IMG/VR virus record: IMGVR_UViG_3300025769_000109
Span: 1 to 62,372 of that record
Length of the DNA: 62,372 nucleotides
Origin: a virus
Strand: one strand, 5' to 3'
A program made the translations under genes and the position numbers. Under the pieces are notes generated by a model. That model was given only the letters and a program-made list of their open reading frames with translations, searched no databases and was not told the origin of the DNA. Positions 2,705-40,181 of the stretch are shown piece by piece. Positions within the stretch are counted from its first letter, which is position 1; every line of letters begins with the position of its first letter.

Positions 2705-3004
2705 ATGGCTCTAAAGAAGTTACTATTCAAACCCGGAATCAACCGCGAAGTAACACGTTACACCAACGAGGGTGGTTGGTACGAGTGCGATAAAGTACGC
2801 TTTAGGCAAGGATTCCCAGAAAAGATCGGTGGTTGGTCTCAAATCTCTGGTACCACCTTTCTTGGCACCTGCCGTTCGCTGTGGAATTGGGTAACACTTG
2901 GCAGTATCAATCTGATTGGTGTGGGTACACACCTCAAGTTTTACCTAGAGCAAGGTGGCGGGTATAACGACATTACGCCGATACGAACTACCACCGTGAT
3001 GTGA
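2705..3004 (+). CDS. Tail/stabilisation-type protein, N-terminal piece (split gene)
   Basis: A 99-codon reading frame starting with KKLLFKPGINREVTRY and containing EGGWYECDKVRFRQGFPEK. It closely resembles the frame at 61974-62372 in this window, but there the frame continues without a stop past the point where this one ends. It ends at ATG-TGA (2999-3004), and the next frame carries on the same protein at GTG 3001, so this is probably one gene with a one-base change near 3000. Proteins of this kind are beta-rich phage structural proteins, possibly like P22 tail stabilisation factors. A ribosome site (AGGTGG) precedes ATG 2705. Confidence 0.7.
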   Translation: MALKKLLFKPGINREVTRYTNEGGWYECDKVRFRQGFPEKIGGWSQISGTTFLGTCRSLWNWVTLGSINLIGVGTHLKFYLEQGGGYNDITPIRTTTVM

Positions 3005-4566
3005 CATTTGCCGCTACAAATGGCTCTGCAACGCTAACCGTTACTGACACAGGACACGGTGCACGAGAGAATGACTTTGTTACCTTCAGTGGTGCGGTAA
3101 CACTTGGCGGTAACATTACTGCTGATGTACTGAACCAAGAGTATCAAATCGTCACCGTACCCGATGCCGATACTTACACTATCACAGCAACTGCTACAGC
3201 CAACGCCTCAGACACAGGTAATGGTGGTTCCGCTGTTGTTGGAGCGTACCAAATCCGTACTGGTGAGCCGTATGAAGTCCCTCTATCTGGTTGGGGCGGC
3301 GGCACATGGGGCGCTGGTGTATGGGGTACAGGTGGTGTTTCCACCGAAGCTATCCGTCTTTGGAGCCAGTCGAACTTCGGCGAAGACCTTGTGTTTGGTC
3401 CTCGCGGGGGTGATATTTTCTACTGGGATGCCACAAACGGTGTTAGCACACGAGGTGTTTACCTAAACACGTTATCAGGCGCTTCTGACGTACCTGAATC
3501 GCAAAACGTAATACTCGTTTCTGACATCAACCGTTTTGTATTCTGTATGGGTACAAACGATGTGGGCACCGCTACGGTAGACCCGATGCTTATTCGCTGG
3601 TCGGATCAGGAAGACCCTGCCAACTGGACGCCAGCTTCAACGAACCAAGCGGGGTCCTTGAGACTGTCACGGGGCACCGAGATAGTTGCGGCTAAACAAG
3701 CACGTCAAGAGGTCCTCGTTTGGACCAACTCTTCCTTGTACTCATTGCAGTATCAGGGCGCACCTGCCGTCTGGGGTGCGCAGTTGGTCGGCGATAACAT
3801 TTCTATCGCATCCATGAACTCCGTGGCGTTTGCTAGTGGTATCGCGTTCTGGATGGGTAAAGACAAGTTCTATATGTACGATGGACGCAGTCAGCCGCTA
3901 CAGTGCGACGTGCGTCGGTATGTATTTGGGGACTTCAACCCGTTGCAGTATGACCAAGTATTTGCGGGTACTAACGAAGCGTTCCACGAAGTTTGGTGGT
4001 TCTATTGCTCGTCTGATAGCCAGAATGTGGACCGTTATGTGGTGTTTAATTACCTCGAACAGACGTGGTATTACGGCACTATGGGGCGCACCGCGTGGCT
4101 TGATTCTGGCTTACGTGAGTACCCACTGGCTGCAACTTATAGCCACAACCTCGTTAATCACGAGCAAGGCACCGACGATAACGAGACAGGCACTCCTGCG
4201 GCGATCACTGCAACTATAACATCTGGTCAATTTGACCTAGATGATGGTGACCGTTTTGCCTTTATCTGGCGTATTATGCCAGACGTAACCTTTGACGGGT
4301 CTACGGCGGCTAGCCCCGCTGCGACCATGACGCTGCTCCCCCTTGCAAACTCAGGGTCAGGGTACAACAGCCCGTACTCAGAGGGGGGTAGTGCCGTAGG
4401 CACCGTCACCCGTACCGCTACAGTGCCGATTGAGCAGTTTACGGGGCAGGTTAATACACGTGTTCGAGGCCGACAAATCTCCCTAAAGATGGAGTCTACT
4501 GACCTTGGTGTTAAGTGGCAGTTAGGTTCTCCACGAGTTGATATGCGCCCTGATGGGAGGCGCTAA
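3001..4566 (+). CDS. Tail/stabilisation-type protein, main part
   Basis: A 521-codon frame, rich in Trp, Gly, Thr and Ser, with repeated short beta-strand blocks (for example LVFGPRGGDIFYWD and VFNYLEQTWYYG), compatible with a beta-propeller. It begins with a TFAATNGSATLTVTDTGH segment that resembles small beta domains inserted in phage tail proteins. Its start (GTG 3001) overlaps the stop of the N-terminal piece by four bases, with no independent ribosome site. Either translation is coupled or the two frames are one broken gene. The following fibre gene overlaps by one base (TAATG). Confidence 0.7.
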   Translation: MTFAATNGSATLTVTDTGHGARENDFVTFSGAVTLGGNITADVLNQEYQIVTVPDADTYTITATATANASDTGNGGSAVVGAYQIRTGEPYEVPLSGWGGGTWGAGVWGTGGVSTEAIRLWSQSNFGEDLVFGPRGGDIFYWDATNGVSTRGVYLNTLSGASDVPESQNVILVSDINRFVFCMGTNDVGTATVDPMLIRWSDQEDPANWTPASTNQAGSLRLSRGTEIVAAKQARQEVLVWTNSSLYSLQYQGAPAVWGAQLVGDNISIASMNSVAFASGIAFWMGKDKFYMYDGRSQPLQCDVRRYVFGDFNPLQYDQVFAGTNEAFHEVWWFYCSSDSQNVDRYVVFNYLEQTWYYGTMGRTAWLDSGLREYPLAATYSHNLVNHEQGTDDNETGTPAAITATITSGQFDLDDGDRFAFIWRIMPDVTFDGSTAASPAATMTLLPLANSGSGYNSPYSEGGSAVGTVTRTATVPIEQFTGQVNTRVRGRQISLKMESTDLGVKWQLGSPRVDMRPDGRR

Positions 4567-5186
4567 TGGCTAACGAGATTGAGAGAGCAGAGCCGCCTGC
4601 TCTGCCACTGGCCCCTGAAGAATACAGACGCCCGTTTATGGACCAGAACAGTAACGTCCTGCGTCTGTTCTTCAATCGTATCGTGAACTCTCTCAATACG
4701 CTGTTTAGCACTGACGATGGTGGCAGATTTTTGTATATGCCACGGGGGTCTTTTTATAGCACTGCTGACCAAACGGCGGCAATGGCAAATACGGGGTACG
4801 CGGTTACGTTTAATTCTACGCACCACACGGATAGCATAACTCTATCAAACAACAGCAGGATAAATGTTACCTACGCAGGTACATATCAGTTCTCTATAAC
4901 GCTTCAGATAGAGCATAATAATTCTAGTGAGGCTACGGTAACTGTTTGGGAGAAGCGAAATGGAACTACCGATACATCCTACTCAGGACATCTATTTGAT
5001 GTAAAAGGTAACGATTACTATGTTGTTAACTGGGTTTTTACACGCGCTTTAGAAGCAAACGATTATATTGAAATCTACTGGGCCACTACTGATACGCAGT
5101 TAAACTTACACGCAGAAGCTGCATCAGCCCCTCACCCCGGCGTCGCATCAGCTACGGTTGATGTAACATTCGGGACTAACTCATAG
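4566..5186 (+). CDS. Short fibre/knob protein, jelly-roll-like
   Basis: A 206-residue protein. Residues 1-60 are a helical adaptor containing EEYRRPFMDQNSNVLRLFF. From about residue 60 it is beta-rich with features of a C1q/TNF-like jelly roll: PRGSFYSTADQT, TYAGTYQFSITLQI, and a C-terminal SATVDVTFGTNS strand. Such modules form trimeric host-contact knobs in phages. It sits directly after the tail protein with a one-base overlap. A virion role is likely; receptor binding is inferred. Confidence 0.65.
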   Translation: MANEIERAEPPALPLAPEEYRRPFMDQNSNVLRLFFNRIVNSLNTLFSTDDGGRFLYMPRGSFYSTADQTAAMANTGYAVTFNSTHHTDSITLSNNSRINVTYAGTYQFSITLQIEHNNSSEATVTVWEKRNGTTDTSYSGHLFDVKGNDYYVVNWVFTRALEANDYIEIYWATTDTQLNLHAEAASAPHPGVASATVDVTFGTNS

Positions 5187-5308: not shown

Positions 5309-5620
5309 ATGGCATTTGATTTTCTTGAACTGTTCAACGCAATAGGCGCTGCACAGAAGGTGGTGACGAAAGACTTCATCCCCGCCGAATCCATGGACAC
5401 CCCCGTAACCGAAGACGCAACAGGGCTAGACAGCCTTGATGTGACGCTAACTTTCTTTGTTCTTGGCGAAGCCTACGGCATCCCCGAAGACGAGGAACTT
5501 AACGAACAATGGCCCTACGAGAGTGTGCAGTTGTTGAAAGAGTTCATTGACGAACATAAAACGAAAAACCCCGAAGACGAGTTTAACTCGATTAAAGCAC
5601 TCGTTAAGGAGTTAGCATGA
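5309..5620 (+). CDS. Acyl carrier protein-like protein
   Basis: A 103-residue acidic protein with the ACP hallmark DSLD at residues 41-44; Ser42 is the expected 4'-phosphopantetheine attachment site. After it comes the usual helix II region (VTLTFFVLGEAYGIPEDEEL) and a helix with LLKEFIDEHK. ACPs carry growing acyl chains as thioesters. The gene overlaps the ketosynthase gene by four bases (ATGA at 5617-5620), so carrier and enzyme are very probably made together. It is longer at the N-terminus than a typical 78-residue ACP. Whether a host phosphopantetheinyl transferase modifies it is unknown. Confidence 0.75.
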   Translation: MAFDFLELFNAIGAAQKVVTKDFIPAESMDTPVTEDATGLDSLDVTLTFFVLGEAYGIPEDEELNEQWPYESVQLLKEFIDEHKTKNPEDEFNSIKALVKELA

Positions 5621-6729
5621 TTTACATGACGCAATGCAGGACTGCCTGCACGACTGACCGTACCCTGATTGACGACATACCCTACCCTCAACACGCCCAT
5701 ATCCTGCCGAAAACGTTTCGTAGAGCCAAATCTGGCCTGAAATACCCTCCTCACGTACTGATCGAAAGCCTGATTGACGAAGAGTTAATCAACTACGTGG
5801 TCAGTAACCCTGTAGCGGGCAAAACTGGTTTCATCTTTGCGGCGGGTAACCAAGGCTGGATGGGCACTAACGGGCGGTACGACAAAAACCCCGATGCACA
5901 GCTTCACTACAAGGTGAAGATTCCGTTTATTGTACTGACCAATATCTATGCAGGGCGTATAGCCAGCATGTTTGCTGTACATGACCATGTGTCAACAGAT
6001 GCTAGCGCCTGCTCTTCTAGCTTACACGTACTCATGAATATGCAGAATCTGATGAACAACTATGGGTTTGATCGGGTTATTGTGTTTAGTGGCGAAGATA
6101 GTGTAAACAACTTAGTATTAGAGTTCTTCGGCGAAGCAGGTGCAAGCCTACAATACAAGGACGAGGGTGAACGCCAACCCTCTGCGTTTGACGACCACAA
6201 CCAAGGCTTCAACATTGGGCAAGGTGCGGTAGTCGCAATCTTTGAGAAAGAGCACGCAGGTATGGCTGATCCCATGGCAAAATTTGTAGGCGCATACAGT
6301 TCCGCAGAAGACAATACCAACCCGCTAGGGCAACGAGATGATGGGTCGGGCTTTAGTAAAGCTATCGAGGGCGCATTATTTGTAGCCAAAGCACATAAAA
6401 ATGATGTAAGGTTGGTTAAAACGCATGGAACTGGCACGCCAGTCAACAATGCTGCGGAAAAATCGGCACTCCTACGTTCTCTTAACGAGTTTGTGGCAAC
6501 GTCTTACAAACCACGTATTGGACACACCATGGGTGCTAGCGGACTATTGGAGACTGGTTTGTTGCTACGCGACTTACAGAACGGCTATGTGCCGAAAATC
6601 CTAAACAGAACTCAGGATGATCCTGTGTTCTTATCCTCTGACGCCCCCGTTCCCGAGGGCCTTATGCTTAGTCTTGCCGCTGGCATGGGCAACATCTACT
6701 CGGCAGCGTTGTTTTCACGGGAGGTGTAA
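5617..6729 (+). CDS. Beta-ketoacyl-ACP synthase (FabF-like ketosynthase)
   Basis: A 370-residue condensing enzyme of the thiolase fold. The catalytic set is complete: Cys132 in STDASACSSS (nucleophile), His270 in KTHGTGTP, Lys298 and His303 in KPRIGHTMGASG with the FabF spacing Lys-x4-His. FNIGQGAVV (about 198-206) matches the conserved GEGAG loop region. It is somewhat shorter than bacterial FabF (about 410), mainly at the N-terminus. These enzymes condense an acyl group with malonyl-ACP during fatty acid or polyketide synthesis. Its start overlaps the ACP stop. It lies among virion genes, which is unusual; the substrate and product are unknown. Confidence 0.85.
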   Translation: MIYMTQCRTACTTDRTLIDDIPYPQHAHILPKTFRRAKSGLKYPPHVLIESLIDEELINYVVSNPVAGKTGFIFAAGNQGWMGTNGRYDKNPDAQLHYKVKIPFIVLTNIYAGRIASMFAVHDHVSTDASACSSSLHVLMNMQNLMNNYGFDRVIVFSGEDSVNNLVLEFFGEAGASLQYKDEGERQPSAFDDHNQGFNIGQGAVVAIFEKEHAGMADPMAKFVGAYSSAEDNTNPLGQRDDGSGFSKAIEGALFVAKAHKNDVRLVKTHGTGTPVNNAAEKSALLRSLNEFVATSYKPRIGHTMGASGLLETGLLLRDLQNGYVPKILNRTQDDPVFLSSDAPVPEGLMLSLAAGMGNIYSAALFSREV

Positions 6730-6730
6730 G

Positions 6731-7198
6731 ATGCAATTAGTGAATAGCAAAGAACGGCTATTAAAAGGACCTGAAATTGTAGCGATGTCTGCAATGGAGG
6801 CCACTGGACTTAAATACCCCAAAGAAGTGCTTTTGGGAGCGGTTGCAGCAGAATTTACACTGCCACGAACGGATTTAGTACAGATCGGAAACACTGTGTT
6901 TGTGGGTCATACGGGTAAAGGCAAGAACAAAAAGAAGATGGTGGGCCGTGCGTTCAATGTCGATACGGGTAGGAACTTCATTATCAATGGGTTCAAATAC
7001 TTCACATATCTACAAAAGAACGGCATAACTCACTATTCGACAACGTTCGACGGACCTGTTTTCTTAAACGGGTTTAAGCTCTTTAAACGCCGTGCTGACC
7101 AACAAGATACGGAGATTGCGATTGGTAAGTACCGAAATAGCGATACGTATGTGGTGTTTATGAGGCTAGGAAAAGAGCCACTAATGCGAGGGTTGTAA
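6731..7198 (+). CDS. Unknown protein downstream of the ketosynthase
   Basis: A 155-residue protein with no family I recognise. It has a basic GKGKNKKKMVGRAF stretch (about residues 58-71), mixed alpha/beta character and several aromatic residues. ATG 6731 is chosen because GGAGGTG lies just upstream (6719-6725), inside the end of the ketosynthase. Its stop is two bases before the next gene. It could belong to the acyl pair or to the ejection protein set that follows. Confidence 0.6.
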   Translation: MQLVNSKERLLKGPEIVAMSAMEATGLKYPKEVLLGAVAAEFTLPRTDLVQIGNTVFVGHTGKGKNKKKMVGRAFNVDTGRNFIINGFKYFTYLQKNGITHYSTTFDGPVFLNGFKLFKRRADQQDTEIAIGKYRNSDTYVVFMRLGKEPLMRGL

Positions 7199-7199
7199 A

Positions 7200-10100
7200 T
7201 TGAGCTTTATCGTTGACGCCATTTCAGACGTAATTGACTGGGTCGCTGGTGCCATTGAAGACGTTGTTGAGTTTGTCTTTGATGAAGTCATTGAGCCTGT
7301 TGTTTCGTTTGTTGGTGATACGGTACAAGCCCTTTTAGACAATCCACTGGAAACAATCGCAAAGGTGGTGGCTATAGCGACGGGTAACGCGTGGGCCATA
7401 CCACTCATTGATGGAGCTTCTGTAGCTGCAAATGGTGGCGATCTTGGTGACGTGCTTGAGAGCGTTGCTATATCCTATGTTTCGCAAGCCATTGGCGGTG
7501 AAATTGCACAGCACACTGCTCCGTTCGTTGACGAAGTTATCGGTGACTCACTCAGCGCAGGTCTAAAAGAAGTTGCTGTCGCATCTATCACTCAAGGCAC
7601 CGTTGCTGCTACCTCTGCCATCCTTTATGGAGAAGACCCGTTAGAAGCGTTTGCCCGAGGTGGTATCACCGCTGCGGTTTCCGCAGGTATGGGTAAAATC
7701 GCTGAGCAAATAGGTTTTGAGGTAGAAGTCACTGACCCTGATACGGGGCAGACGACTACACGAGCACTTCCAAACGTCGTTAAAAACGTTGTTAGTGCTG
7801 CACTTGCCGCTGAATTAACGGGCGGTGAAATCACTGACGAGCTTATAGCAAACGCCGTTACGCGTGGTTTGATTACCACGGACCTTGTTAAAAAGTACGT
7901 CGCAGACAACCCGAACATTGGAGATCGTGAACTTACCTACATGACCGCTGCGTTTCAACGCACAGCGGCTGTCGCCCTATCTGGTGGTACTGGAGAACAG
8001 GCAGCGGCACAAATCATGGGCGTTATCTCTGCCTATGGTATGGAAGAACTGCACGATGAGATTCGTGACTCAGGTGTTGGGGACTTTATCGGCGATACCC
8101 TCGACAAAATATCTGGTGATTACCAGCGCGTAGAAGAACTAACCGCGTTAATGGACGAGATAGGCCCAAGACTCCAAACAAACTACGCCGAATACGAAGA
8201 AAAGTACAACACACTGCAAGCGTTGTGGGGCATTATCACGGGTAATCGTGAACAGATTATGATGCTTGAAGCTGATGCAGCGGAGCCGGGGCTGGACGCC
8301 AACAATATATTTGCACGACAAATTGCAGAATTAGAAGCTGAGCTTGAAACAGCCGTCGTAGAATACAACCGCTTAATCGAAGAAGAAGGCTACCTCGACC
8401 GAATTAACGAACTTGTACCCCTAATCGAGGCTGATAACGAAGCGTTGCAAGGGTACCAAGACGATCTCATCGAAGCACAGAATGATCTACAACGTAGTGC
8501 TGACCGCTTAGACGGTGAGCTAACGTCTGTATACAGCGCAACAGATGAGTACCTAGTTAACGCTATGGACCCCGGCTTTAACGCCGACGAATACCGAGAA
8601 CTTAACAACCTACCTGATGATGTAGATGCTTATGCACACTTCTTATCCGAAGGACAGCATAACGGGGCGTATACTAGCTGGAATCAATACGACATCGCGT
8701 TAGACAACGCACGTGATCTTGCAATGAACGAGATCATGTTTGGCGGCTTTGGTATTGGTGAAAACTCTGCCGTATGGAACCTTACAGACGCTGACCGCCA
8801 AGCCTTACAAACCATACTAAGAGAGAACGGATACGACTCCCCTCAAGCCTTAAATGAACTTTTAACAGCGCCGGGCGAAGTCCGAGAAGCTGTGTTTAAT
8901 CAATGGGTTGAAGCCATTGGGTCAAACCAAAACCGTTTGTTCAGCACTGGCGATACGTTACGGCAAGCCGACATAGACTATCTTGCGGCACAAGGATACG
9001 ACATGCGAGGTGTCGCGGTAGGCACTCCAATGTCTGCTGAAGAGGCGATTGCGCTAGATGCTGGTTTCCGTCAACAAAGTGGAGACTCAGAAAGTGGTGG
9101 CGGTGGGTTTGGATTTTCTGAAGGTGTCACTGCTGAAGACGTTATAAATGGTACAGCTATCCTTCGTACGGGAGACGACGGGTCCATGCAATGGACAGTG
9201 CTACCGGGCGTAACACGTTGGGACCCTCAACATGGCTGGATTACACAGCAGATTTTTTACGATGAAGCTGGAAATAAACGGCAGTGGCAGTATGTAGACC
9301 AAGACGGTAACTTTGTCCCCGGCACTATGGGGCTTGTTATCTATGGTGGCGTGCAAGATGTTGATGACCGCGAACAAGCAGGTTTAGCGCTTAACGCCGC
9401 AAGCAGTGGTATGTCTTGGGGTGATATTCAAGAAGGTCTTGGATGGTCTGACACCTTAATTGACATGGCGCAAAACGTCATGGATTGGGCAAACGAAAAC
9501 GACACCGATGTGTTCGGGTTGTTTGATGCTCAAAACTTCCTTGCCAACGCTATGAAAGCTGGTGGTGGCATCCTCGAAGCGTTTAACGGCATGTCCACCT
9601 TGTTTGGTATCGCACCAGACAGCACAGCACTTGGTAAGTTTGCGGAGCAACTACAGAACATTGGTGCAGCGGGCAACACCGAAGAGTACCAAGCCGAGCT
9701 TGCCAAACTGCAAGAAATGATGAGCGCCGAAACTGATCTTCCAGAAGATGCGGCGTGGTATGAAAGAGCGTTTGCTAGAGTCGCTACGATTGCTGGCGCA
9801 GCCGCTGAGCACCCCAGTGCGTTTATTTCTGAATATATTGGCGTTGAAGCCTTGCAGGAGCTTGTACCTCTTGCAGTCGGTGGTGTTGCCACACTGGGTG
9901 CGAAAGGCGCGGCAATGGCTATGGGTCGTACGCTGTCCACTCGTATGGCGGCTGGCACAGGTCTAAGTGCCGCAGCAGTCACAGACATCGCCGAAAGCTA
10001 TGGTGGCACAGCGGGAGAGACGTACGACCGTGCACTAACAGTCGCCTTAGACTCAATTAACCCTGCTACGGGTCAGATTTATACGCAGGAAGAAGCTGAA

Positions 10101-13100
10101 GAATACGCAATGACACTCGCCGTACAGACGGGTGCAGTAGCCGCAACAATGACCGCCGCTACAATGGGTATCGGTGGCATGGCGTTGGAGAAAGCGCTGC
10201 TTGGTGACAAAGCCGCAACTGGGTTTGTCGGAGCAGGTATAGACGAGCTTGCAAGCCGTATCGCTAATGGCGGTACGATTATGATTAAAGAGGGCCTTAC
10301 TGAGGGTCTCGAAGAAGGTCTTGCTACCGCGTTCCGTGAAGGGCATTTATCACAAATTAACCCTGATATTGACGTAGCCGACGAGGTTGCAGGTGCGGCC
10401 TTCATGGGCTTTATTGTTGGTGGCCCAGTTTCTGGTGGTGCGTATGGCGTAAGCCAAGTCGGAGATGCTTACTCTAACTTTATCTCTGCGATTGACCCTG
10501 ACGTGCGGTCAGCCATCGAGAACGGTAACACTGTAGCTGCTAACGAAGCACTGGATAATCTAGGTGTTACCGACCCAGTCGTACGTAATAACGTACTCAG
10601 TCAGGTTGCACCCGATCAGTTCGTCAACACAGCGCAAGCCACTACGTCATTCCTTAACGCAAACCCTGATTACACTGCAACGGAAGCAGAGATTAACTCG
10701 TTTGTACAAGCGGGCAGCTACGAAGATATTAACGAACAGATTGATCGCTACGTCGATGATCGTTACGTGGACGTGCAGGAAGTTATTGATGCCGCCGCTG
10801 CCGAAGGCGTTACGCTCACTGAAGAACAAGCTCAACAGTACGTTGGTCAAGGCCCCGCAGGTCATGAAGACGCGGTACTGTCTAACCTTCGCACCGAACT
10901 TGGCCCTGAGTACACTACTTTTGGCGAGGCTAAGAAGTTCTTTGAAGACCTTGGATTCAACCCCACAGACGCACAAGTGCAGGGCTTTGTTGGTCGTATC
11001 GCCGAAAGCACACAACAGCAGGCTATTGCTGAGTATGTAGACCCACGACAAATTACGGAAGAAGAAGCCCGCGCTGCGTTTGAGGCTCAAGGGTTTGACC
11101 CCTCTGCGGATGACATTGCGGCGTTTGTTGGTCAAGGCAACGCTAATTTTGAATCTAACGCCGACTTTGAAGGGTATGTAGACCCCCGTCAGGTTACCGA
11201 AGCGGAAGCCCGTGCGTTCTTTAACGACTTAGGGTATGAGGCTACTGATGCGCAAATTGCCGCGTTTGTTGGTCAAGGCGGGGCAAACTTTGAAAGTAAT
11301 ACAGGCACTAACGTCTCTAGTTACGTTGACCCCCGTCAGGTTACTGAAGCGGAAGCTCGCGCTGCGTTTGAAGCACAGGGCTACACCCCGACTAACGAAG
11401 AGGTTGCGCAATATGTTGCGCAAAGCGCCGATAACAATCTTCAGGCTTCTACAGAGACCGACATCACTAGCTTTGCTGACCCTCGTGCAACTACAGAGGC
11501 CGAAGTTCGTGCCATGTTTGAGGCAGAGGGGTACACACCCACCGATGCCGAAGTCCAAGCCCGTATGGGTCAGGGCGGTGCAGACTTTGAGTCTACGTCC
11601 GATGAGCAGATCAGCAATTATGTAGACCCACGTCAGGTTACTGAGGCAGAGGCACGTCAGTTCTTCGCCGATATGGGTTACGATCCTACAGATGCGGAAG
11701 TCGAAGCGTACATGGGGCAAGGCGGCTCAAACTTTGAGTCGAACAAAGAGACTGCGGTTGGTGCGTATGTTGATCCACGCCAGACTACGGCAGAAGAAGT
11801 TAGGGCGGCGTTTGAAGCGGCGGGCTACGAAGCGACTGAAGACCAGATTAACCAGTTCGTCGGACAGCTAAACCAAGCACAGCAAGAAGCTGCGGTCGGC
11901 GAATACATTGATCCACGTCAGGTAACAGAGAATGAAGCACGTCAGTTCTTCTCAGACCTTGGCTATGACGCCACGGCTGATGAGATTGCTGCGCAAGTTG
12001 GTCAAAGCCTTGAGGAAACGTATCAAGCCACGACCGAGACAGGTGTCGGCAGCTACGTAAACCCACGTCAGGTAACAACTGATGAGGCGAGGGCTTTCTT
12101 TGAGAGCTTGGGCTACGAGGCCAATAACGCAGAGATTGCGTCGTTTGTTGGTCAGGGCGGTGACACGTTTGCTGCCGATCAACAGGCCGCAGTGGGTACT
12201 TACGTAGACCCACGTCAGATGACTGAAGCTGAAGTCCGCGAGATGTTTGCGGCTCAAGGCTACGAACCTACTGACGAAGAGGTGGCAGGCTACGTTGGTC
12301 AGGGCAACAGAAACTTCGACACAAATCAAAGCAACGCGGTCACTGCGTTTGCTGACCCACGTGCAACCACTGAAGCTGAAGTTAGAGCACAGTTCGAGGC
12401 CGCAGGCTACGATCCTAGCGACGAAGAAATCGCGGCCCGTGTCGGTCAAGGCAATGCAACCTTTGAGTCTGGCACCAATACTGAGGTCGCAGGCTACTCC
12501 GATGTGCGTGTTGTCACCGAAGCAGAAGCACAGCAGTTCTTCGATAACCTTGGCTACGAAGCTACAGACGACGAGATCGCTGACTTTATCGGTCAGGTCG
12601 AAGATCGTAGCAATGCACAGTACCAGTCACAGCAACAGAACCTTGTTGGTCAGTATGTAGACCCACGTCAGGTCACGTTTGACGAGCTACAAGCCATTGC
12701 AAGTCAGGAAAACCTTACCCTTACTGAGGCACTTGCCGAAGCGTATGTGGGTCAAGGTGACGAGAACTTTGAGTCAACCAATTTTGCCGATGCTCGTAGC
12801 GAATACGATACCTTGGCTACCACCACGGACGAAGCACGGCAGTTCTTTGGTGATCTAGGCTACACCTTTACCGACGAAGAAGTCGCTCAGTTTGCTAACG
12901 ACAGCATGACTGAGGCAGACCAGCAAACGGCACTAGGTGCCTATGTAGACCCACGTCAATTTACTTTCGAGGAAGCTCGTCAGTACATGATTGACCAAGG
13001 CTACACTGATCCTACAGACGAAGAAGTTAACAGGTTTGTGGGTCAAGGTGACGACGCATTCCAAGCTACCAACCAAGACGCTGCGTTTGCGTACGTCGAT

Positions 13101-14996
13101 GAATTTACTGTCACGGCTGACGAAGTACGTGATATGTACGCTGAGTTGGGTCTGGTACGGCCTACGGATGACGATATTGCACGGTTTGTAGGTCAGTACG
13201 AAGAATCCACCCTGCGTGGACAGCTTGAAGAATACCTACCCGTTGCAACGTCTAACTCAATCAACGGCATTGTTGAGGGTCTGGAAGACCAAATCGGTCA
13301 GATTGCTGACGGTGACCAGCCTGCTACGGGTCTGTATGCGTACATTGATAACGCCATTCAGGACCTGATAGATGCAGGAATCGACGCTGACGAAGTTACA
13401 CAGATTATTAACGACGTTGTTGGTACACCTGCTACTGGCGATTCTGACGCGACTGGTATCTATGCAGCACTCGAAGGTGTGGTTGACGATGTCGAATCAC
13501 TTATCGGTCAGCCTGCCACAGAAGATAGCGAAGCTACGGGTATCTATGAGGCGATTGACGACGCGGTTGCGGGAGTCAGTGAAGAAGTAGCTGACGTTGC
13601 CGAAGACGTTGCCGACCTATCTGATGTTATCGGTACTCCTGCGGTCGAAGACGACCTTGCTACTGAAGATGTAGACGAGTCCCAAGAAGCCACGGGTATC
13701 TTTGCTGAAATCGACGCACTGGTCGAGGCAGGTGCAACACGCGATGAAGCTATCGCTGCGCTCGCAGGCCAGATTGGTACAACATACGATAACTTGATAG
13801 CAGCCCTTGGCGAAGTTGAAACCAACATCGCCGAAGACATTGAGGGCGTACAAGAAGATATAGCTGACGTTGCGGGTATCCTTGGTACTCCTGCGGTTGA
13901 AGATGACCCGAATACTACAGATGTAGATGAATCTCAGGACCCAACAGGTCTGTTCGCTACGATTGCTGAGTACGAAGCACAGGGTCTAGCACGTGATGAA
14001 GCCACTCAACAGGCTATCAGCGACCTATCTAACGAGCTTGGGCTAACTGAAGACCGCATCCTCGAAGAGTTCGGTCTTACCGAAGACCGTATTATCCAGC
14101 GTATTGACGATGCTGAGACTGCGCTTAGCGAAGACATCGCAGGTGTACAAGAAGACGTTGATATTCTTGAGGGCGTCATTGGTTTGCCCGGTCTGGAAGA
14201 TGACCCGAACACGCCTGATATTGATGAGAGCCGTGCAGCGACAGGTATCTTTGAGACCATCGCCCAGTACGAAGCGGCTGGCATTGCACGTGATGAAGCC
14301 ACACAGCGAGCGGTATCTGACCTATCTACTGAGTTAGGTATCACTGAAGAAAACTTACTCAACCGTATTACTGAAGCTGAAACCACACTAACTGACGATA
14401 TTAACGCCATTAGTGAACTGATTGGTAAGCCTGCTACTGAGGTTACACAGACTGACATCGACTTTGTTGTAGATGTTATCGCTGGTAATCAAGTTATGGC
14501 AGAAAACCAGCTTGCGCAGTACGATGTGACTGGTGATGGTCAGATCACACTAGAAGATCAACAGCTACTAGAACAGCTATTGGCTGGTGAAAACGTATTC
14601 GGTCAGGTTGCCGATACGTCTATCTACGCACCGACAGGTATTTACGGTACGGTGCAGGATACGCAGACCGCTATTGAGCAGCAGATACAGCAAAACCAAG
14701 AGCAAACGATGGATCAAATCCAACAAATGGAACAGAACATCGTTACTAATATTGAACAGGAGGCGTTACGTGCTGGTGGGCGTCAATTCTTGCAAGCCGC
14801 GCTTCAAGCTCCTGATGCAATGGGGCAACAAGTAACCGTCAGAACACCCGATCCGCTAAATTTACGCTACATTTACGACTTTAGCAGCATATTTGCCACT
14901 CCTCAACAGCAGGCAATGTTCCCTAGTCCGTATGCAAAGGGTGGACAAGTAGAGGATACAACTGATAAGTTGTTAAATATAATTGGAGGCTCGTAA
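7200..14996 (+). CDS. Giant repeat-containing virion/ejection protein
   Basis: A 2598-residue protein starting at TTG 7200 (GAGGG upstream). Regions: residues 1-230 with hydrophobic, amphipathic segments; about 310-450 coiled coil; about 850-1140 Ala/Gly-rich hydrophobic segments; about 1180-2000 tandem repeats of about 45 residues (YVDPRQVTEAEARAFF...GYEATDAEI...FVGQG); about 2020-2420 a second acidic repeat series (GTPAVEDD...ATGIF); a dockerin-like calcium loop at about 2442-2453 (DVTGDGQITLED); and a C-terminal YAKGGQVED motif. Size, hydrophobic blocks and position before other large proteins fit an internal ejection protein that enters or crosses the host envelope. Enzymatic motifs are not seen. 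Confidence 0.7.
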   Translation: MSFIVDAISDVIDWVAGAIEDVVEFVFDEVIEPVVSFVGDTVQALLDNPLETIAKVVAIATGNAWAIPLIDGASVAANGGDLGDVLESVAISYVSQAIGGEIAQHTAPFVDEVIGDSLSAGLKEVAVASITQGTVAATSAILYGEDPLEAFARGGITAAVSAGMGKIAEQIGFEVEVTDPDTGQTTTRALPNVVKNVVSAALAAELTGGEITDELIANAVTRGLITTDLVKKYVADNPNIGDRELTYMTAAFQRTAAVALSGGTGEQAAAQIMGVISAYGMEELHDEIRDSGVGDFIGDTLDKISGDYQRVEELTALMDEIGPRLQTNYAEYEEKYNTLQALWGIITGNREQIMMLEADAAEPGLDANNIFARQIAELEAELETAVVEYNRLIEEEGYLDRINELVPLIEADNEALQGYQDDLIEAQNDLQRSADRLDGELTSVYSATDEYLVNAMDPGFNADEYRELNNLPDDVDAYAHFLSEGQHNGAYTSWNQYDIALDNARDLAMNEIMFGGFGIGENSAVWNLTDADRQALQTILRENGYDSPQALNELLTAPGEVREAVFNQWVEAIGSNQNRLFSTGDTLRQADIDYLAAQGYDMRGVAVGTPMSAEEAIALDAGFRQQSGDSESGGGGFGFSEGVTAEDVINGTAILRTGDDGSMQWTVLPGVTRWDPQHGWITQQIFYDEAGNKRQWQYVDQDGNFVPGTMGLVIYGGVQDVDDREQAGLALNAASSGMSWGDIQEGLGWSDTLIDMAQNVMDWANENDTDVFGLFDAQNFLANAMKAGGGILEAFNGMSTLFGIAPDSTALGKFAEQLQNIGAAGNTEEYQAELAKLQEMMSAETDLPEDAAWYERAFARVATIAGAAAEHPSAFISEYIGVEALQELVPLAVGGVATLGAKGAAMAMGRTLSTRMAAGTGLSAAAVTDIAESYGGTAGETYDRALTVALDSINPATGQIYTQEEAEEYAMTLAVQTGAVAATMTAATMGIGGMALEKALLGDKAATGFVGAGIDELASRIANGGTIMIKEGLTEGLEEGLATAFREGHLSQINPDIDVADEVAGAAFMGFIVGGPVSGGAYGVSQVGDAYSNFISAIDPDVRSAIENGNTVAANEALDNLGVTDPVVRNNVLSQVAPDQFVNTAQATTSFLNANPDYTATEAEINSFVQAGSYEDINEQIDRYVDDRYVDVQEVIDAAAAEGVTLTEEQAQQYVGQGPAGHEDAVLSNLRTELGPEYTTFGEAKKFFEDLGFNPTDAQVQGFVGRIAESTQQQAIAEYVDPRQITEEEARAAFEAQGFDPSADDIAAFVGQGNANFESNADFEGYVDPRQVTEAEARAFFNDLGYEATDAQIAAFVGQGGANFESNTGTNVSSYVDPRQVTEAEARAAFEAQGYTPTNEEVAQYVAQSADNNLQASTETDITSFADPRATTEAEVRAMFEAEGYTPTDAEVQARMGQGGADFESTSDEQISNYVDPRQVTEAEARQFFADMGYDPTDAEVEAYMGQGGSNFESNKETAVGAYVDPRQTTAEEVRAAFEAAGYEATEDQINQFVGQLNQAQQEAAVGEYIDPRQVTENEARQFFSDLGYDATADEIAAQVGQSLEETYQATTETGVGSYVNPRQVTTDEARAFFESLGYEANNAEIASFVGQGGDTFAADQQAAVGTYVDPRQMTEAEVREMFAAQGYEPTDEEVAGYVGQGNRNFDTNQSNAVTAFADPRATTEAEVRAQFEAAGYDPSDEEIAARVGQGNATFESGTNTEVAGYSDVRVVTEAEAQQFFDNLGYEATDDEIADFIGQVEDRSNAQYQSQQQNLVGQYVDPRQVTFDELQAIASQENLTLTEALAEAYVGQGDENFESTNFADARSEYDTLATTTDEARQFFGDLGYTFTDEEVAQFANDSMTEADQQTALGAYVDPRQFTFEEARQYMIDQGYTDPTDEEVNRFVGQGDDAFQATNQDAAFAYVDEFTVTADEVRDMYAELGLVRPTDDDIARFVGQYEESTLRGQLEEYLPVATSNSINGIVEGLEDQIGQIADGDQPATGLYAYIDNAIQDLIDAGIDADEVTQIINDVVGTPATGDSDATGIYAALEGVVDDVESLIGQPATEDSEATGIYEAIDDAVAGVSEEVADVAEDVADLSDVIGTPAVEDDLATEDVDESQEATGIFAEIDALVEAGATRDEAIAALAGQIGTTYDNLIAALGEVETNIAEDIEGVQEDIADVAGILGTPAVEDDPNTTDVDESQDPTGLFATIAEYEAQGLARDEATQQAISDLSNELGLTEDRILEEFGLTEDRIIQRIDDAETALSEDIAGVQEDVDILEGVIGLPGLEDDPNTPDIDESRAATGIFETIAQYEAAGIARDEATQRAVSDLSTELGITEENLLNRITEAETTLTDDINAISELIGKPATEVTQTDIDFVVDVIAGNQVMAENQLAQYDVTGDGQITLEDQQLLEQLLAGENVFGQVADTSIYAPTGIYGTVQDTQTAIEQQIQQNQEQTMDQIQQMEQNIVTNIEQEALRAGGRQFLQAALQAPDAMGQQVTVRTPDPLNLRYIYDFSSIFATPQQQAMFPSPYAKGGQVEDTTDKLLNIIGGS
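10740..13215 (+). repeat. Tandem protein-coding repeats, about 45 codons each
   Basis: About 17-18 diverged copies of a unit beginning YVDPRQ or FADPRA, followed by TEAEARAFFxxLGY, an acidic stretch and FVGQGxxxFES. Copies keep the frame but differ at the DNA level, so they are old. Each unit probably forms a small helical module with an acidic surface. Confidence 0.85.
13260..14440 (+). repeat. Second in-frame repeat series, acidic
   Basis: Four to six diverged units built around GTPAVEDDxxTxDVDESQ, a TGIF or TGLY turn and a long helix with many Ala, Glu and Asp residues (for example EDIAGVQEDVDILEGV). It looks like a long alpha-helical, coiled-coil-prone stalk. No relation to the first repeat series is obvious. 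Confidence 0.7.
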
Positions 14997-15804: not shown

Positions 15805-16647
15805 ATGGCTGATCCGATTGTAGGACAAGAAACAGGTAGAGAGTCGTCCCTTTCTACATGGGCTGGTCCGTATGTAACCACAATGCTTGGCAAGGGCGCT
15901 GCGCTTGCAAATGAACCCTATCAAGCATACATGGGGCCGCTGACCGCTGGTTCTGCACCCCTGCAACAACAAGCATTCCAAGGTATTGCTGGCCTCGCTG
16001 TGCCGGAACAGATGGGGGCATATCAGCCTCAGTCGTTTACACAAGAAGGCAGTGCACAGCAGTACATGAACCCATATATTCAGGCCGCGCTACAGCCGCA
16101 GCTTGATGAACTCCGTCGTCAGACTGAAAAATCACGTGTTGAGCAGGCAGGGCGTCTCACCCGCGCTGGTGCTTACGGTGGTTCTCGACAGGCTTTGGCA
16201 GACACAGAACTTACTCGTGCGATGTTGTCAAATATGGCAAACGTAACGGGACAAGGCTACAACCAAGCGTTCCAACAAGCACAGCAACAGTTCAACACAG
16301 AACAGCAACAGGCTCAGCAAGCACAGAACCTAGCAAATCAGTTCGGATTGCAAGCACTGGCGAACCAAGTACAAGCTGGTCAGCTACAGCGTGGCATTGA
16401 ACAAGAAGGTATTACAGCAGACCGATTGCAGTTTGAGGAAGAGCGAGACTTCCCATACAAGCAGGTGCAGTACATGCAGTCACTTCTACAGGGCTTGCCG
16501 ATTGCCGCACAGTCTTATTCATACGCACAGCCAAGTGCGCTATCCGACTTTTTATCCGGTTCTGGTGGGGTGTACGACCTACTTAGTAAAGTATTCTTGC
16601 CTCAAGAAACGCCGCCAGCCGAAGACACTAGCGGGACAGGGGGCTAA
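15805..16647 (+). CDS. Gln-rich virion protein
   Basis: A 280-residue protein. The N-terminal part contains STWAGPYVTTMLGKGAAL and PYQAYMGPLTAGSAPLQQQA; the middle (about 90-220) is a long Gln/Ala-rich helix with GRLTRAGAYGGSRQALADTE. The same design is seen in marine podovirus-like structural gene sets next to large ejection proteins. A GAGGTGAG ribosome site precedes ATG 15805. An internal virion protein forming helical assemblies is likely, but the exact role is unknown. Confidence 0.65.
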   Translation: MADPIVGQETGRESSLSTWAGPYVTTMLGKGAALANEPYQAYMGPLTAGSAPLQQQAFQGIAGLAVPEQMGAYQPQSFTQEGSAQQYMNPYIQAALQPQLDELRRQTEKSRVEQAGRLTRAGAYGGSRQALADTELTRAMLSNMANVTGQGYNQAFQQAQQQFNTEQQQAQQAQNLANQFGLQALANQVQAGQLQRGIEQEGITADRLQFEEERDFPYKQVQYMQSLLQGLPIAAQSYSYAQPSALSDFLSGSGGVYDLLSKVFLPQETPPAEDTSGTGG

Positions 16648-18444: not shown

Positions 18445-18450
18445 GTGCAC

Positions 18451-21400
18451 ATGGCGACTTTAGCGCAACTCGAACAAGCTCTCATAAATGCAGATCGGGC
18501 GGGTCGCACTGAAGACGCTCGTATCCTTGCTCAAGAACTTCAACGTGCCATGGGTGGCGCGGAGGTTGATCCGTTTGCTGCACAAGCGGAGATACGTGAG
18601 CAACTGCGTCGGTCTTCACCGGAAGAGTCGGGCTTTATTGAAAACGTGTTATCAGGCTTTGGGTCTGGTGTTGTCGGTACTGGCGAGATGGCTGCACTTG
18701 GTGCGGCTGCATTACTAGAAGAGGAAGACGAACTCGCTGCCCGTGACAAGATCAAAGCTGCCGCAGAATCATTTCGGCCTGAAGGTGGTGACCAAGACTC
18801 GCTAGCCTACAAAATATCCTCTGGTGTTGGTTCTGTTGCTGGTGCGCTTGGTGCCGCCGCTGCCGCTACGTATGGTGCTGGCGCACTTGGTGTTGGCGCA
18901 GTAGGTGCTGGTCTTGCAGGTTTGGGTACCGCAGGTGCTATCGGCGTCGGTGCTGGTGCTGGTGAAGCTAGCGAACGTGCACGTGCCGCAGGTGCTACCG
19001 AAGAAGAACGCGCAGCGGCTACACGCAGAGGCGCGGCAATCGGATCACTCGAAGTATTACCACTTGGTCGTATTCTTAAAATTCCCGGTGTGTCCAAGCT
19101 CGCTGAGAAAATCGGTGGTAAAGCTGTCGAGGAAGGTGGAAGCCGAATCCGTAGCGCATTGACCACTGGTGGTGCTGAAGCCGCACAGGAAGCTAGTGCC
19201 GCGTTCTTACAGAACCTTAACGAGCGTGGCTACAACGTAGAGAAAGAGCTACTAGACGCAGGTATTATCGACGAAGCTATCGCTGGCGGCGGTGCAGGTG
19301 CAATCGTACAGGGTGTCGTAGACTTTTTTGTTCGAGGCAAGACCCCGAGGCGTACCGCGACCGAAATTGATAGCGAAGCGCCAGAGACCGCAGAAGTTGA
19401 GGTCACTGAACCTACACGTACTGAGGACGAAATACGTGAAGCAGAAGCAGCATCGCTAGAAGCCCGTGCACTGGCAGCAGCAGACCGTGGTGACGAACGT
19501 AAGTTTGAGCAGGCAGCGGCTGAAGCCGCACAGCCTGACTTGTTTCCACGTGAACTAGAAAAAGCGAGAAAGGCCCGCCCAGAGGCCGCACTGCGTGGTC
19601 AGCTAGAGTCAGAAGGGGCAGAACGAGTACCGCAGCGAGAAGGTATTAGAGAAGAACCTAAGCCAACACCGCCGCAACCCATCCCCGTACAAGAAGATAT
19701 GATCGACCGTCTGGATAAGATGGAGATCGACGATGCTGAGATCGCTGAGATCGAAGCGATGCTACAGGCAGATGAGCAAGCCGTTGCCGAACTAGATCGG
19801 ATGCGCGGTGAGTCTGAGCTTGAAACCATGGATGCCCGTCGGAAAGGCGATCAGGCACGGCGTAGCACGGATAAGCGTTACAGCATCCTGCAAAAGACCA
19901 TTGAAGAGAACCCTACGCGTAACTACAACACGCTGTCGAAGAACTTTGAAAAAGCACTCAAAGCCGAAGGCATCAAGAAAACCAAGGCAACTGAGAGTGA
20001 AATCAAGACGATTCGCCGTGCAGTAAACGTACAGCGTGCGGAGAAGCCCGAACCACCCACGACACCTGAGATCACTCCACCGCCAGAAGCTACACAACTT
20101 GCAGAAATGGAAGCACGTATCCCAGAACGTAAGGAACGTGCACCTGTTACTCCGTCACAACTATCGTTCCCCGGTATGGGGCGTCGTAAGACACCACCTG
20201 TAAAGGAGACACCACCCGCTCCGAAGACAGTAACGAAAGAGTTTATGGACGGTCTCGGCATTTCACCCGCCGCTCCAATACGCAAACGCACGGAAGGTAA
20301 AGACCTTAACGACCCTGCGATACGTGAGCAGTTCGTGAAGTTTGCCAATAACCCCAAGGTGGGACAGCAAGCTCGGCTGAATGTGGCGAGAGAACTAGAA
20401 GGCGTGCCAGAAGCACAGCTTGAATTGTTCCAGCCCCAGCCTCGTGGACGTGTCGCCGCTGTACAAGGAGGCCCCGATGCGAGGATTAGAGAACCTCAAC
20501 CAGTGCGAGGTGGAGTTAGCGTTCCAACTCCTCGACCGCCTGTGGGAGAAACAGGAGGAGTTCCTGCACGTCCAAGAGCTACCGAAGTGCCTACAGCACC
20601 TCGAAGAGGAAGAGTGGCAAGTGCTCGGCGTAGCGTTGGAGAGCCTGTACGAGGAGCGACAGAACAGCAGCTTACACTAGATTTACCTGAGCCAATCGCT
20701 GCGCCGAAAGTAGAGACACCCAAGCCAACAAGAAAAGCGGCACCGAAAAAACGTGTGGCTAAGAAGAAGGCTCCTACACAACCCCGGGAAGCTCAGGAGT
20801 TAACCACTACACGTAAACAAGTCACCACAAAAGAACCGAAGAGGACAACCTCTACGACGCGCAAAGTGATGCCTACGTTGCAGGTCAAGAAGACTACCCC
20901 GGCGCTGGCTCCTAAAGACAACGCAACAAAACAACTTAGGGCGAAGTTTGAGGAACAAAACGAGCAGACACAAAAATACGCGACCGAACTTAGCAAAGAC
21001 TTCCAAGATACGGTTGGTGACGAGAAGACCTCAGTTGATGATCGGCTGAAGATTCTCACCTTGCTTACTGGTGGTGCAAAGGCCCGCGATAAGGACGGCA
21101 ATGCCGTGGTAACTTATTTGAGTAAGTACCCTCGACCCACCGACGGCTTGTACGCGGCGATCTATGACGTGGCAAACCAGTCACCACAGTTCCGTAGAAC
21201 CAACGAGACCACTGCACAGGAAGCAGCGATCTTTGAAGGTACGGGCAAGAAAACAGGTCAGCGTGTGTTGGACTGGGCGAAAGCTAACCTGTCCGATAAG
21301 ACGAACAAATGGATTGACGAGACACTAGCGAACGAAATTCGTGAGATGCAACGGATCGAGAACACCGACTATGTCGAGATGTTCCGTCAACGCGATGCCA

Positions 21401-24400
21401 AGCTAGCCGCGAAAGAAGCGGCAGAACAGGCACAGATCGAAGCTGAGATGCGTCAAGATGTACGTGCAAGCCTCAACGAACTGGCTCGCATGTTTGAAAA
21501 GAAACTCGAAAGAGGTTCTGTTATGGCGCTTGATATACCGCTGCACCCGGCAGTACGTGTGGCGTTACGTGAGAACAACTTACAGGGCGCACTATCATCG
21601 CTCGCAGCGACGACGCCAGATAACCGTGTACGCCAGATTGCAACTAAGCTGAGCAAGGTTGCAGGTGATACTAAAATCGAAATCGTCAAAGACATGAAGG
21701 ATGCAGGGTCGTTTGATCCTGAGACCAACACGATCAAGCTGGACGCAGACGAAGGGATGAACCCGCACGTGTTGTTGCACGAAGCTACTCACGCGGCGAC
21801 ATCGGCTACGCTTGGAAACAAGAACCACCCGCTTACTCGCCAGCTCACAAACCTTTACAACGACGTTAAAGATTATCTTGATACTGCGTATGGTGCGAAG
21901 GACGTGGATGAGTTCGTCTCCGAGGCGATGTCGAATCCAGAGTTCCAAGCCAAACTTGCGGCTATCAATCCTAACGGCGAAAAGATTAACGCACTGCAAC
22001 GCTTCTACAACAGTGTCGGTAACTTCCTGCGTAAGCTAGTCGGTATGCAACCGAAGAAGATTGATTCGGCGCAGACCATGGCTGACCGTTTGATTGATGG
22101 CATTCTTGCTCCCGCTCCTGACTATCGTAACGCACCAGAGCTTGCCATGGAGTCAACCGCTGATGGTGTGAAGCGCGAGGCCAACGCAGTCGGCGATGCG
22201 CAGAAGGCTGTAAGCCAGCCCACTATGACCAAGCAAGGTAAGGCGCAGTTCGGCGACACAGCGTCAAACGTCATGAGCAGTCTCGGCGAAGCGAGATCAT
22301 GGCTCGTACCTAAACTCCTTGATGCGCAAGCACTAGCTGACGCAGCATATTCTGTTAGTGACAAACTTGGTGCAGTAGCTACTAAGTTCTACGAGACCGC
22401 TGACTTTATGCGTGGCGACATGGGTAAGGCGCACGACAAAGTACGTGAACAAATCAAGGTTGTAGACCAATGGCGTGCCAAAGCAGGCAAAGAAGGACAA
22501 GCGCACCTAGACAACTTAATCTATAACGAGAGCTTTGGCGCTACGATCTATCAGGTTGACCCTAACAAGAAGCGGTCAGACTACGAAGGACAGACTGACG
22601 AGAGCGGTAACGACCTAGCAAAAGTCTGGGATGCGCAACGTGCCGATTGGAAAGCACTTGGTGCCAGTGGTCAGAACGCTTACCGCACCATGCAGAAAAT
22701 GTATCGCGCTCAGTTTGAAGAGTTGAAAGCGGTGATCGACGGGCGTATCGACCGCCTCCTTGAGAACAATCCTGATGCGGCTACTGAACTAAAGAACGAA
22801 GTTTTCTCCAAGCTGTTCGAGAACAAAACGCTCGACGTGTACTTCCCCTTGTTGCGTGAAGGCCGATACAAAATCGAGTACACCTTCAAGAATGCCAAGG
22901 ATGGGCGTGACACCTATGTATTCCAGATGATGGATAACAAGGCACAACGCGACCGTCTGGCGGAGGAACTACGTGCTGACCCTGACGTGGTAACAAGTTC
23001 TGTTAAGACAGGTGATGGTGACTTCAGGAACTACGACTTCAGCAATGCACCGTCCACGTCTTTTGTCGGCAATGTCATCAAAATCCTCGACGAGAACGGC
23101 AAAGGTCTACAGGGCGCTGAGAAGGACGCGTACGACGAAAACAAAGCTGACATCATGAATTTGTTTATTGATGCGCTCCCGGAAAGTTCGTTCGCTAAGT
23201 CCCTGCAAAGACGTAAGGGTACACCGGGCTACATGACCGATTCAATTTACGCCATGAAGACCAAAGGTTTTGACCTTGCGCGTCAGATTGAAAAGCTGAA
23301 GTACACCGCACAGTTCCAACAGCTTGAAGCCGAACTTGCAGAAGTGCAGGGTGAACCTCCCCAAGGCGCAGACTACAAGTTCAACCAGATTGCTGACCAG
23401 TTACAGACACGCATTAACTTTGCTAAGTACGGTGCGAAGAACAAGGGTGTGGAGCAGTTTGTACGCTTTGCCAACCAAACCGCGTTTGTTTATACGCTCG
23501 GCGGTAACGTGGCATCAGCCGCTGTGCAGTTGTTCCAGACCCCGATGTTTACCTTCCCGATGTTGGGAGCACGGTACGGATACCAGAAGACTTACGACGA
23601 AATCATGAACGCATCGTCCATCGTGACAGGTGCAAAGATGAACGCCGAAACAATCAAAGAAGCAACGGGGCTACGTGGTAAGGCAGGTGCCGCGACCAGA
23701 AAAATCTCTATCGCGCACGGTCTCGACTCGTACTATGACGTCACTGACAACGGTGACTTTGTAGTGAAGAAGGACCTTGGCGTTCCTGACGAGCGTGTAA
23801 AGGAGTTAGAGCGTCTGGCCCCACTTGTGCAGCTAATGCACGCACGTGGACATCTCAACCGTTCGTTCTTGTTTGACCAGTTGGGTATTGAAGAAGGTGG
23901 CAAGGCTCGCCGCCGTGGTGGACTGGGTCAGCAGATCGCCAACGCTATCGACTTTGGCACAGGTGCTTCGGCTCTTATCTTTAACCAGTCTGAACGGTAC
24001 AACCGCCAAGTTACCGCCGTTGCGTCATATAACCTAGCTTTGGAGCGCATCACCGCTGAGAACCCTAAGATGCCACTACGTGAGCGTCAGGATAAGGCGG
24101 CTGTAGAAGCTCTGTATGACACGCAAGAATACAATGGTGGTTCGACACTCGAAACGGCACCGCGCATCGCACAGGAAGGTCTAGGCCGCGTGGCGATGAT
24201 GTATAAGACGTACGGTCTGCGCATGTACTACAACATGATTAAGACTATGCGTCAGTTGGCAGACAATGCGTTTGCCAGCGATGCCGAGGGCAAAATGCTA
24301 CGCAACATTGCGCTCAAGCAAATGATCGGTATACATGGTTCGGCTCTGTTCTTTGCGGGTATCCACGGTATCCCACTGTACGGCGCGGTTCAGTTACTTG

Positions 24401-38912: not shown

Positions 38913-39037
38913 TATTCTTCCTCCTCTTCTTCATCTGTGGGGAAGGACACGACAACGTGACCGTATTCTTCGTGAGTGATCTCCCACTTGTGGGTTGGGC
39001 AAGTCTCCAACCATTCAAAAAATTCTTCGCGGGTCAT
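38912..39037 (-). CDS. Small acidic protein (41 aa) coupled to the VWA gene
   Basis: A 41-residue protein beginning MTREEFFEWLETCPTHKWEI and ending in six Glu residues. AAGGAG lies 7 bases before ATG 39037. It lies between the MoxR and VWA genes, and its stop overlaps the VWA start by one base. It may be an adaptor or inhibitor of the pair. Confidence 0.65.
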   Translation of the reverse strand: MTREEFFEWLETCPTHKWEITHEEYGHVVVSFPTDEEEEEE

Positions 39038-39048
39038 TGTCATTCTCC

Positions 39049-40140: not shown

Positions 40141-40160
40141 GATATTTCTCCAGTTGATTT

Positions 40161-40177
40161 GTTAGTGCGGCACTAAC
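40161..40177. promoter_or_regulatory. 17-bp palindrome copy 4 (CGG centre)
   Basis: GTTAGTGCGGCACTAAC, perfect 8-base arms. It lies in the 41-base gap between the DUF3150 and MoxR genes. Confidence 0.85.
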
Positions 40178-40181
40178 TTGT

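Follow-up and report, generated by a model that had tools for sequence, protein, structure and literature searches.

A phage gene cassette encoding an acyl carrier protein, a ketosynthase and a GNAT-fold protein ahead of the DNA-ejection genes

A cassette of three genes, encoding an acyl carrier protein (ACP)-like protein, a FabF-like ketosynthase (KS) and a protein of GNAT fold, is a lineage-wide core feature of a widespread group of aquatic bacterial viruses. The cassette may be a phage-dedicated supply of acyl-ACP coupled to a GNAT-fold acyltransferase, probably one that acylates a virion protein; we prefer this reading, but only tentatively. The first-pass annotation of this DNA had recognised the ACP and KS as a coupled pair. 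The coupling stands, but the pair is not the whole unit, since a third gene that had been missed (6731..7198) belongs to the same operon.

The window, i.e. the whole stretch of DNA analysed, is 62,372 bases long and makes up an entire IMG/VR virus record. It belongs to a tailed phage, as judged from its genes for terminase, portal, capsid and SU10-type adaptor, and the content of predicted genes, which includes a DNA ejection protein and a stabilization protein resembling P22 gp10, suggests a short-tailed virion. The closest named relatives of the terminase, at 45-48% identity, are Pelagibacter phages HTVC027P and HTVC023P, phage 023Pt_psg01 and phage DSL-LC04. Upstream of the cassette, on the + strand, lie the gene of the P22 gp10-like stabilization/hub protein (3001..4566; phrog_3287, virion structural protein, 7.5e-58), homologues of which carry the annotations 'stabilization protein' or 'needle head protein', and a gene for a fibre or needle-tip-like protein (4566..5186), so called only from its sharing the position of P22 gene 26. 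Pfam and PHROG gave no confident family match for the latter product. Downstream, also on the + strand, are a gene with a TTG start for a 2598-aa ejection-type protein (7200..14996), positioned as P22 gene 7, and a DNA ejection protein gene (15805..16647; phrog_4287, DNA ejection protein, 3.9e-6). The pair had been placed between a fibre-like gene and large ejection proteins, and the order of genes in the window agrees. A scan for promoters and terminators gave results near chance.

Several other features of the window were noted. No family match was obtained for the N-terminal 467 aa of the 7200..14996 product. The protein carries at least 11 degenerate DPRQ/DPRA repeats at a spacing of about 50 residues, and the counterpart of its gene in several relatives encodes only about 650-700 aa. 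After the ejection genes, 18445-25185 encodes a 2246-aa protein with a HEATHAAT zinc-metalloprotease-like motif, the first 685 aa of which gave no PHROG match. At 37674-41099 on the - strand, adjoining genes for a DUF2201 metallopeptidase/VWA-like protein, an AAA ATPase and a DUF3150 protein resemble a phage MoxR-VWA module. A small protein encoded 5' of the lysis genes (930-1241) has an EF-hand-like DLDGDGTITDEE motif followed by hydrophobic stretches.

The first gene of the cassette (5309..5620, + strand) encodes 103 aa with a DSLD motif, the codon of Ser42 being at 5432-5434. All 104 distinct homologues have Asp41 and Ser42, and almost all have Leu43 and Asp44, with identity outside DSLD down to about 21-34%. 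The best of five AlphaFold models (pLDDT 90.5; the other four 60 to 86) has helices at residues 5-16, 42-56, 62-65 and 73-83. Helix II is thus predicted to begin at Ser42, with DSLD at the start of an ACP-type helix, and on this point, set beforehand as a possible refutation, the ACP assignment is not refuted. Foldseek matches of the model are acyl carrier proteins at E values of 0.01 and above, i.e. of moderate similarity, and entries from complex I and MukBEF are also among them. The protein has no match in Pfam (PF00550), PDB sequences or NCBIfam; the ACP of a relative that lacks the KS has a PP-binding match over the same motif at a sub-threshold 15.2 bits (cut-off 20.8). From conservation and predicted structure together, the earlier description of the product as ACP-like is convincing.

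The KS (5617..6729, + strand) has 370 aa, with Cys132 (codon 6010-6012), His270 (6424-6426), Lys298 (6508-6510) and His303 (6523-6525). Pfam models PF00109 (7.5e-10, 39.3 bits) and PF02801 (1.1e-16, 61.4 bits) both exceed the cut-off of 20.8, the PF00109 match being confined to the latter half of that N-terminal domain. PDB sequences matched are those of solved FabF-type enzymes, at best 6.7e-22. The best curated match in NCBIfam is the FabF equivalog TIGR03150, at 106.1 bits and below its cut-off of 493.75. Residues 2-318 match phrog_35856 (5e-34), a family listed as of unknown function, the entry for which makes no mention of a KS, an ACP or an operon. By its matches to Pfam, PDB sequences and NCBIfam, the protein is predicted to be a genuine condensing enzyme. 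All four residues align with those of E. coli FabF and are invariant in 111 of 111 distinct phage KSs, which bears out the FabF-like assignment and, by alignment and conservation only, agrees with a putative Cys/His/Lys pocket. This residue set argues for real condensation chemistry. The gate loop GFGGTN of FabF is replaced by GMGN in all 111.

The third gene (6731..7198, + strand) encodes 155 aa, for which the AlphaFold model reaches a pLDDT of 94.8. The order of elements in the model, helix-helix-three strands-helix-strand-helix-two strands, is that of the GNAT fold, and among the PDB matches listed by Foldseek 50 of 50 are GNAT acetyltransferases (best E 9.4e-4, TM 0.4-0.6). Viral structural matches include a DUF2824 protein and an 'Internal virion protein A'. 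Sequence comparison gave no match to a Pfam GNAT model. The CoA pyrophosphate loop R/Q-x-x-G-x-G/A is not recognisable in 44 of 45 GNAT-fold proteins and the one match is chance-like; the pattern is weakly specific, being also absent in exact form from the annotated GNAT protein of Roseobacter phage CRP-901. The family has no invariant His of the RtxC/HlyC type.

IMG/VR was scanned with KS proteins, with an alignment of KSs and with the third gene of the cassette, yielding a set of 246 sequences, some from the same contig and including the window, a phage from Manatee Spring and one genome match. A single scan with the KS alignment returned 451 stretches encoding a relative at its threshold. 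In the window the ACP stop and KS start share ATGA at 5617-5620, a four-base overlap as first annotated, and the search of viromes that had been proposed for this overlap found it in 124 of 149 first-pass loci. ACP is upstream of KS in 149 of 150 first-pass loci, the exception being a contig that begins about there. Where both flanks of the KS are present, ACP is found in 211 of 211 loci and the GNAT-fold gene follows the pair in 207 of 211 (a count that includes L187, whose KS fossil was taken for a KS). Conversely, GNAT-fold loci with room upstream (n=223) have ACP and an intact KS in all but seven. The dN/dS ratio is about 0.04 (0.035-0.056 where computable) in all three genes. The pair is not a chance association, because ACP lies upstream in all 211 loci, the catalytic residues are invariant and dN/dS is about 0.04. 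The same gene order and four-base overlap are present in the uncultured phage from Manatee Spring (INPHARED MW202545.1; KS 52% identical), where the KS is annotated as 3-oxoacyl-ACP synthase and the ACP and GNAT-fold genes as hypothetical proteins.

The origin of the KSs was addressed with a tree of phage KSs, E. coli FabF and FabB, Balneolaceae FabF and type I polyketide synthase (PKS) domains, a phylogeny against FabF and polyketide enzymes having been suggested at the outset. In this tree, in which cellular sequences are few and branches long, the phage KSs group together as a single long-branched clade, apart from FabF, FabB and PKS alike and about 20% identical to each. A scan of prokaryote genomes, limited by the short patterns used, gave one match in 84,980, a phage-type three-gene operon on a Balneolaceae MAG contig. 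An origin in a host or a prophage was rejected on this single match and its phage-type locus. Recent and sporadic capture of a host gene, in the manner of an auxiliary metabolic gene, was rejected likewise, because the KSs have their own deep, phage-only clade and a GMGN signature, the operon is near-fixed and the one matching genome carries all three genes. Other INPHARED matches (Listeria, Staphylococcus, Acinetobacter etc.; below 31% identity and most unannotated) were set aside, as they look like cellular FabB/FabF in phage-labelled records. The earlier framing, in which fatty-acid genes occur as occasional phage auxiliary genes, thus gives way to a lineage-wide core cassette. What survives of the original interpretation is a matched pair, coupled in translation, with the residues of an elongating KS and with steps supplied by the host; the pair as the whole unit and the occasional auxiliary gene do not.

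Genes for AcpS, an FabG-type SDR, FabD and FabA/Z were found neither in the window nor in 15 other phage records, in agreement with the earlier remark that no other fatty-acid gene is seen. Because these are absent from all 16 records, phosphopantetheine, malonyl groups and any reductions have to come from the host.

The cassette has natural exceptions. In five contigs (L187, L188, L190, L191 and L192) an ACP that retains DSLD is separated from an intact GNAT-fold gene only by a KS fossil of about 25 degraded residues around HGTGTxxNN (EQIKILKTHGAKTKLNN vs EQIKIVKTHGTGTKSNN in relatives). These natural losses of the KS are at L187:4683-4815, L188:4680-4775, L190:4948-5000, L191:4953-5006 and L192:3878-3930. 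The remaining neighbour of the ACP in each is the GNAT-fold gene, and this retention indicates a use of the ACP besides the KS. L221 (also fetched as L257) has a GNAT-fold gene and neither ACP nor KS. The partial contigs of one phage type (L104, L108, L109 and, by the same test, L114) carry ACP-KS but lack a GNAT-fold gene; the L108 pair is outside the virion block, with replication genes on one side and, on the other, small genes that run up to a probable gene for the small terminase. The shared element is the ACP.

The cassette is also fixed with respect to what follows it. The next gene starts -3 to +5 nt from the stop of the GNAT-fold gene (distinct loci), and its product begins M-[SGA]-[AFV]-[VI] (M-S-F-I-V in the window), followed by a Val/Asp-rich amphipathic stretch. 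Residue 2 of this ejection protein is S, G or A in 133 of 143, compared with 50% in control ORFs, which is a hint, as the sequences are related and the controls were not matched for ancestry.

A dedicated supply of acyl-ACP to a GNAT-fold acyltransferase is favoured because the KS residues and the ACP serine are invariant, dN/dS is low and gene order is near-fixed, and because the ACP and GNAT-fold gene persist after loss of the KS. It is favoured further by a GNAT fold in which the CoA loop is not recognisable, as in the acyl-ACP-using RtxC/HlyC enzymes, and by the coupling to an ejection gene, the N-terminal pattern of that gene's product and the lack of other phage fatty-acid genes. The same reading is weakened because GNAT-like proteins occupy the slot without ACP or KS (CRP-901, L221 and, by position, P22 gp14), because the partial contigs of one phage type have ACP-KS off the virion block and lack a GNAT-fold gene, because an invariant RtxC-type His is missing and the CoA-loop test is weak, and because the N-terminal pattern may reflect shared ancestry.

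Under such a scheme, host AcpS would load the phage ACP with phosphopantetheine late in infection, and host enzymes would acylate or malonylate it. The phage KS would add two carbons to the acyl chain on the phage ACP, by acylation of Cys132 and a putative decarboxylative condensation assisted by His, His and Lys, the residues being observed and the reaction inferred; its product may be reduced by host enzymes. The GNAT-fold protein would then take the acyl group from the phage ACP and transfer it to an amine. A virion protein is the most economical guess for the target, because the cassette adjoins an ejection gene. The likeliest acceptor would be the first ejection protein, perhaps at the conserved N-terminal Ser/Gly/Ala before its amphipathic stretch, and the lipid would, speculatively, aid insertion of that protein into the host envelope as the DNA is delivered. 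In T7-like phages the first ejection protein enters the outer membrane (PMC8954989), where an acyl group could be of help. The full proposal, in which aquatic phages lipidate their own DNA-ejection protein for envelope insertion, with ACP and KS making a specific chain and the GNAT-fold enzyme attaching it, possibly to the N-terminal Ser/Gly/Ala, is a somewhat doubtful one. Of the three roles first suggested for the pair (lipid remodelling, a signalling molecule or acylation of a virion protein), virion-protein acylation fits best, given the acyltransferase fold predicted for the product of the third gene and the ejection gene immediately next to it; general lipid remodelling fits worst.

Auxiliary metabolism would have the pair boost or redirect host fatty-acid elongation or membrane lipids, with the GNAT-fold gene acting separately in virion assembly, in the manner of P22 gp14. 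Earlier work has proposed auxiliary roles for phage ACP and FabF (PMC8224337, PMC11705849, PMC10653327), the KS retains its elongation residues, and both the ACP-KS outside the virion block in one phage type and the GNAT-like genes in the slot without ACP-KS count in favour. However, the KSs form a deep phage-specific clade and are not a host copy, a dedicated ACP is superfluous for acting on the host pool, linkage to the GNAT-fold and ejection genes is near-fixed, and the ACP stays beside the GNAT-fold gene after KS loss. On balance this explanation is unlikely.

GNAT-fold enzymes that make small acyl-amides from acyl-ACP exist, and the presence of a GNAT fold beside an ACP, with a KS that residue conservation suggests is kept active, could be taken to indicate a small-molecule product. 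The ACP and KS would set the chain and the GNAT-fold protein would join it to a free amine (an amino acid, polyamine or similar) in the style of LuxI-type or N-acyl-amino-acid synthases, giving a signal, a membrane agent or an anti-host compound. A secreted product, however, needs no fixed place against an ejection gene in the virion block, and late expression leaves little time for it, so that this prospect appears decidedly improbable. ACP is a structural subunit in several complexes, and the location in the virion block, with complex I and MukBEF entries among the ACP matches, could suggest that ACP and KS are structural or chaperone parts of virion assembly, or that ACP acylation is only a partner-binding switch; the chance of this is slight, since a purely structural role leaves unexplained the invariance of four KS residues and the ACP serine across divergent sequences. 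Equally slender is the prospect that the KS is itself an acyltransferase, moving acyl groups from ACP to an amine or alcohol without condensation as thought for some KS-like biosynthetic proteins: the GMGN gate loop and a distant match to the NCBIfam KS-like 'acyltransferase subunit' AmcF (1.6e-23, far under cut-off) would allow it, but the decarboxylating residues, Lys298 and the two His, never vary, and ordinary FabF models give higher scores than AmcF.

If the proposed lipidation of the ejection protein is correct, these viruses would encode a protein-acylation system of their own that depends on acyl-ACP. A short-tailed phage has to assemble a protein channel across the host envelope, and the entry of ejection proteins into membranes is understood only in part. 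With a conserved cassette for building and transferring acyl groups just ahead of the ejection genes, lipidation of virion proteins would become a mechanism open to test, and a role would be suggested for GNAT-like proteins at the same place in other phages. 'Fatty-acid auxiliary genes' in viromes would also be recast, in that at least one family of them is a phage-specific module annotated as 3-oxoacyl-ACP synthase or 'unknown function'.

Earlier reports of phage fatty-acid genes differ from the cassette. A phage-borne ACP is known from Alteromonas phage R22Y, and acpP/fabF/fabG from Rhodobacteraceae prophages (PMC11705849, PMC8224337). By their descriptions these are set apart, being a lone auxiliary ACP or a host-like fabG-acpP-fabF operon in predicted prophages with no linkage to ejection genes described, and another report of phage ACP/FabF consists of read-level annotation only. 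A literature search, with most subscription papers and preprints outside its reach, found no description of an ACP-KS-GNAT-fold cassette, in keeping with the earlier suggestion that a coupled pair in this position may be undescribed.

Compared with FabF/KAS II, the phage KSs share the Cys-His-Lys-His set, the C-terminal domain and the order of motifs, but differ in their identity of only about 20%, in GMGN for GFGGTN and in forming their own clade. With type II ACPs (AcpP, PF00550) the phage ACP shares a DSLD starting helix II and a predicted four-helix fold, whereas it adds a C-terminal helix (95-102) and the equivalents of AcpP E41 and E47 are not acidic. The P22 gene order is 10-26-14-7-20-16, and that of the window is gp10-like, fibre/needle-like, ACP, KS, GNAT-fold and ejection genes. 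In this order the GNAT-fold gene takes the place of P22 gene 14 (DUF2824), directly before the ejection genes; unlike the cassette, neither P22 nor CRP-901 has an ACP or KS at that slot. The 6731..7198 product has no Pfam match to P22 gp14 (DUF2824) and an hhalign probability of 0.2%, and a sequence-profile link to P22 gp14 or CRP-901 gp34 was sought and none detected, so the relationship is one of positional and structural resemblance and not of family membership. The CRP-901 gene (gp34; L156:12387-12821) is an annotated GNAT shortly before large virion proteins in a related phage without ACP/KS. GNAT-like genes in the pre-ejection slot may be a wider feature of phages.

In bacterial protoxin operons hlyC is placed before hlyA. 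The RtxC/HlyC acyltransferases have a GNAT fold without CoA-binding elements and use acyl-ACP as donor (PMC8339906). The phage cassette shares with these enzymes and their protoxin operons the predicted GNAT fold and a gene beside that of a putative protein substrate, and would share the acyl-ACP donor; its CoA loop is not recognisable by a weakly specific pattern. RtxC/HlyC, however, use host ACP and a conserved active-site His, whereas the phage family has no invariant His and the phage brings its own ACP and KS.
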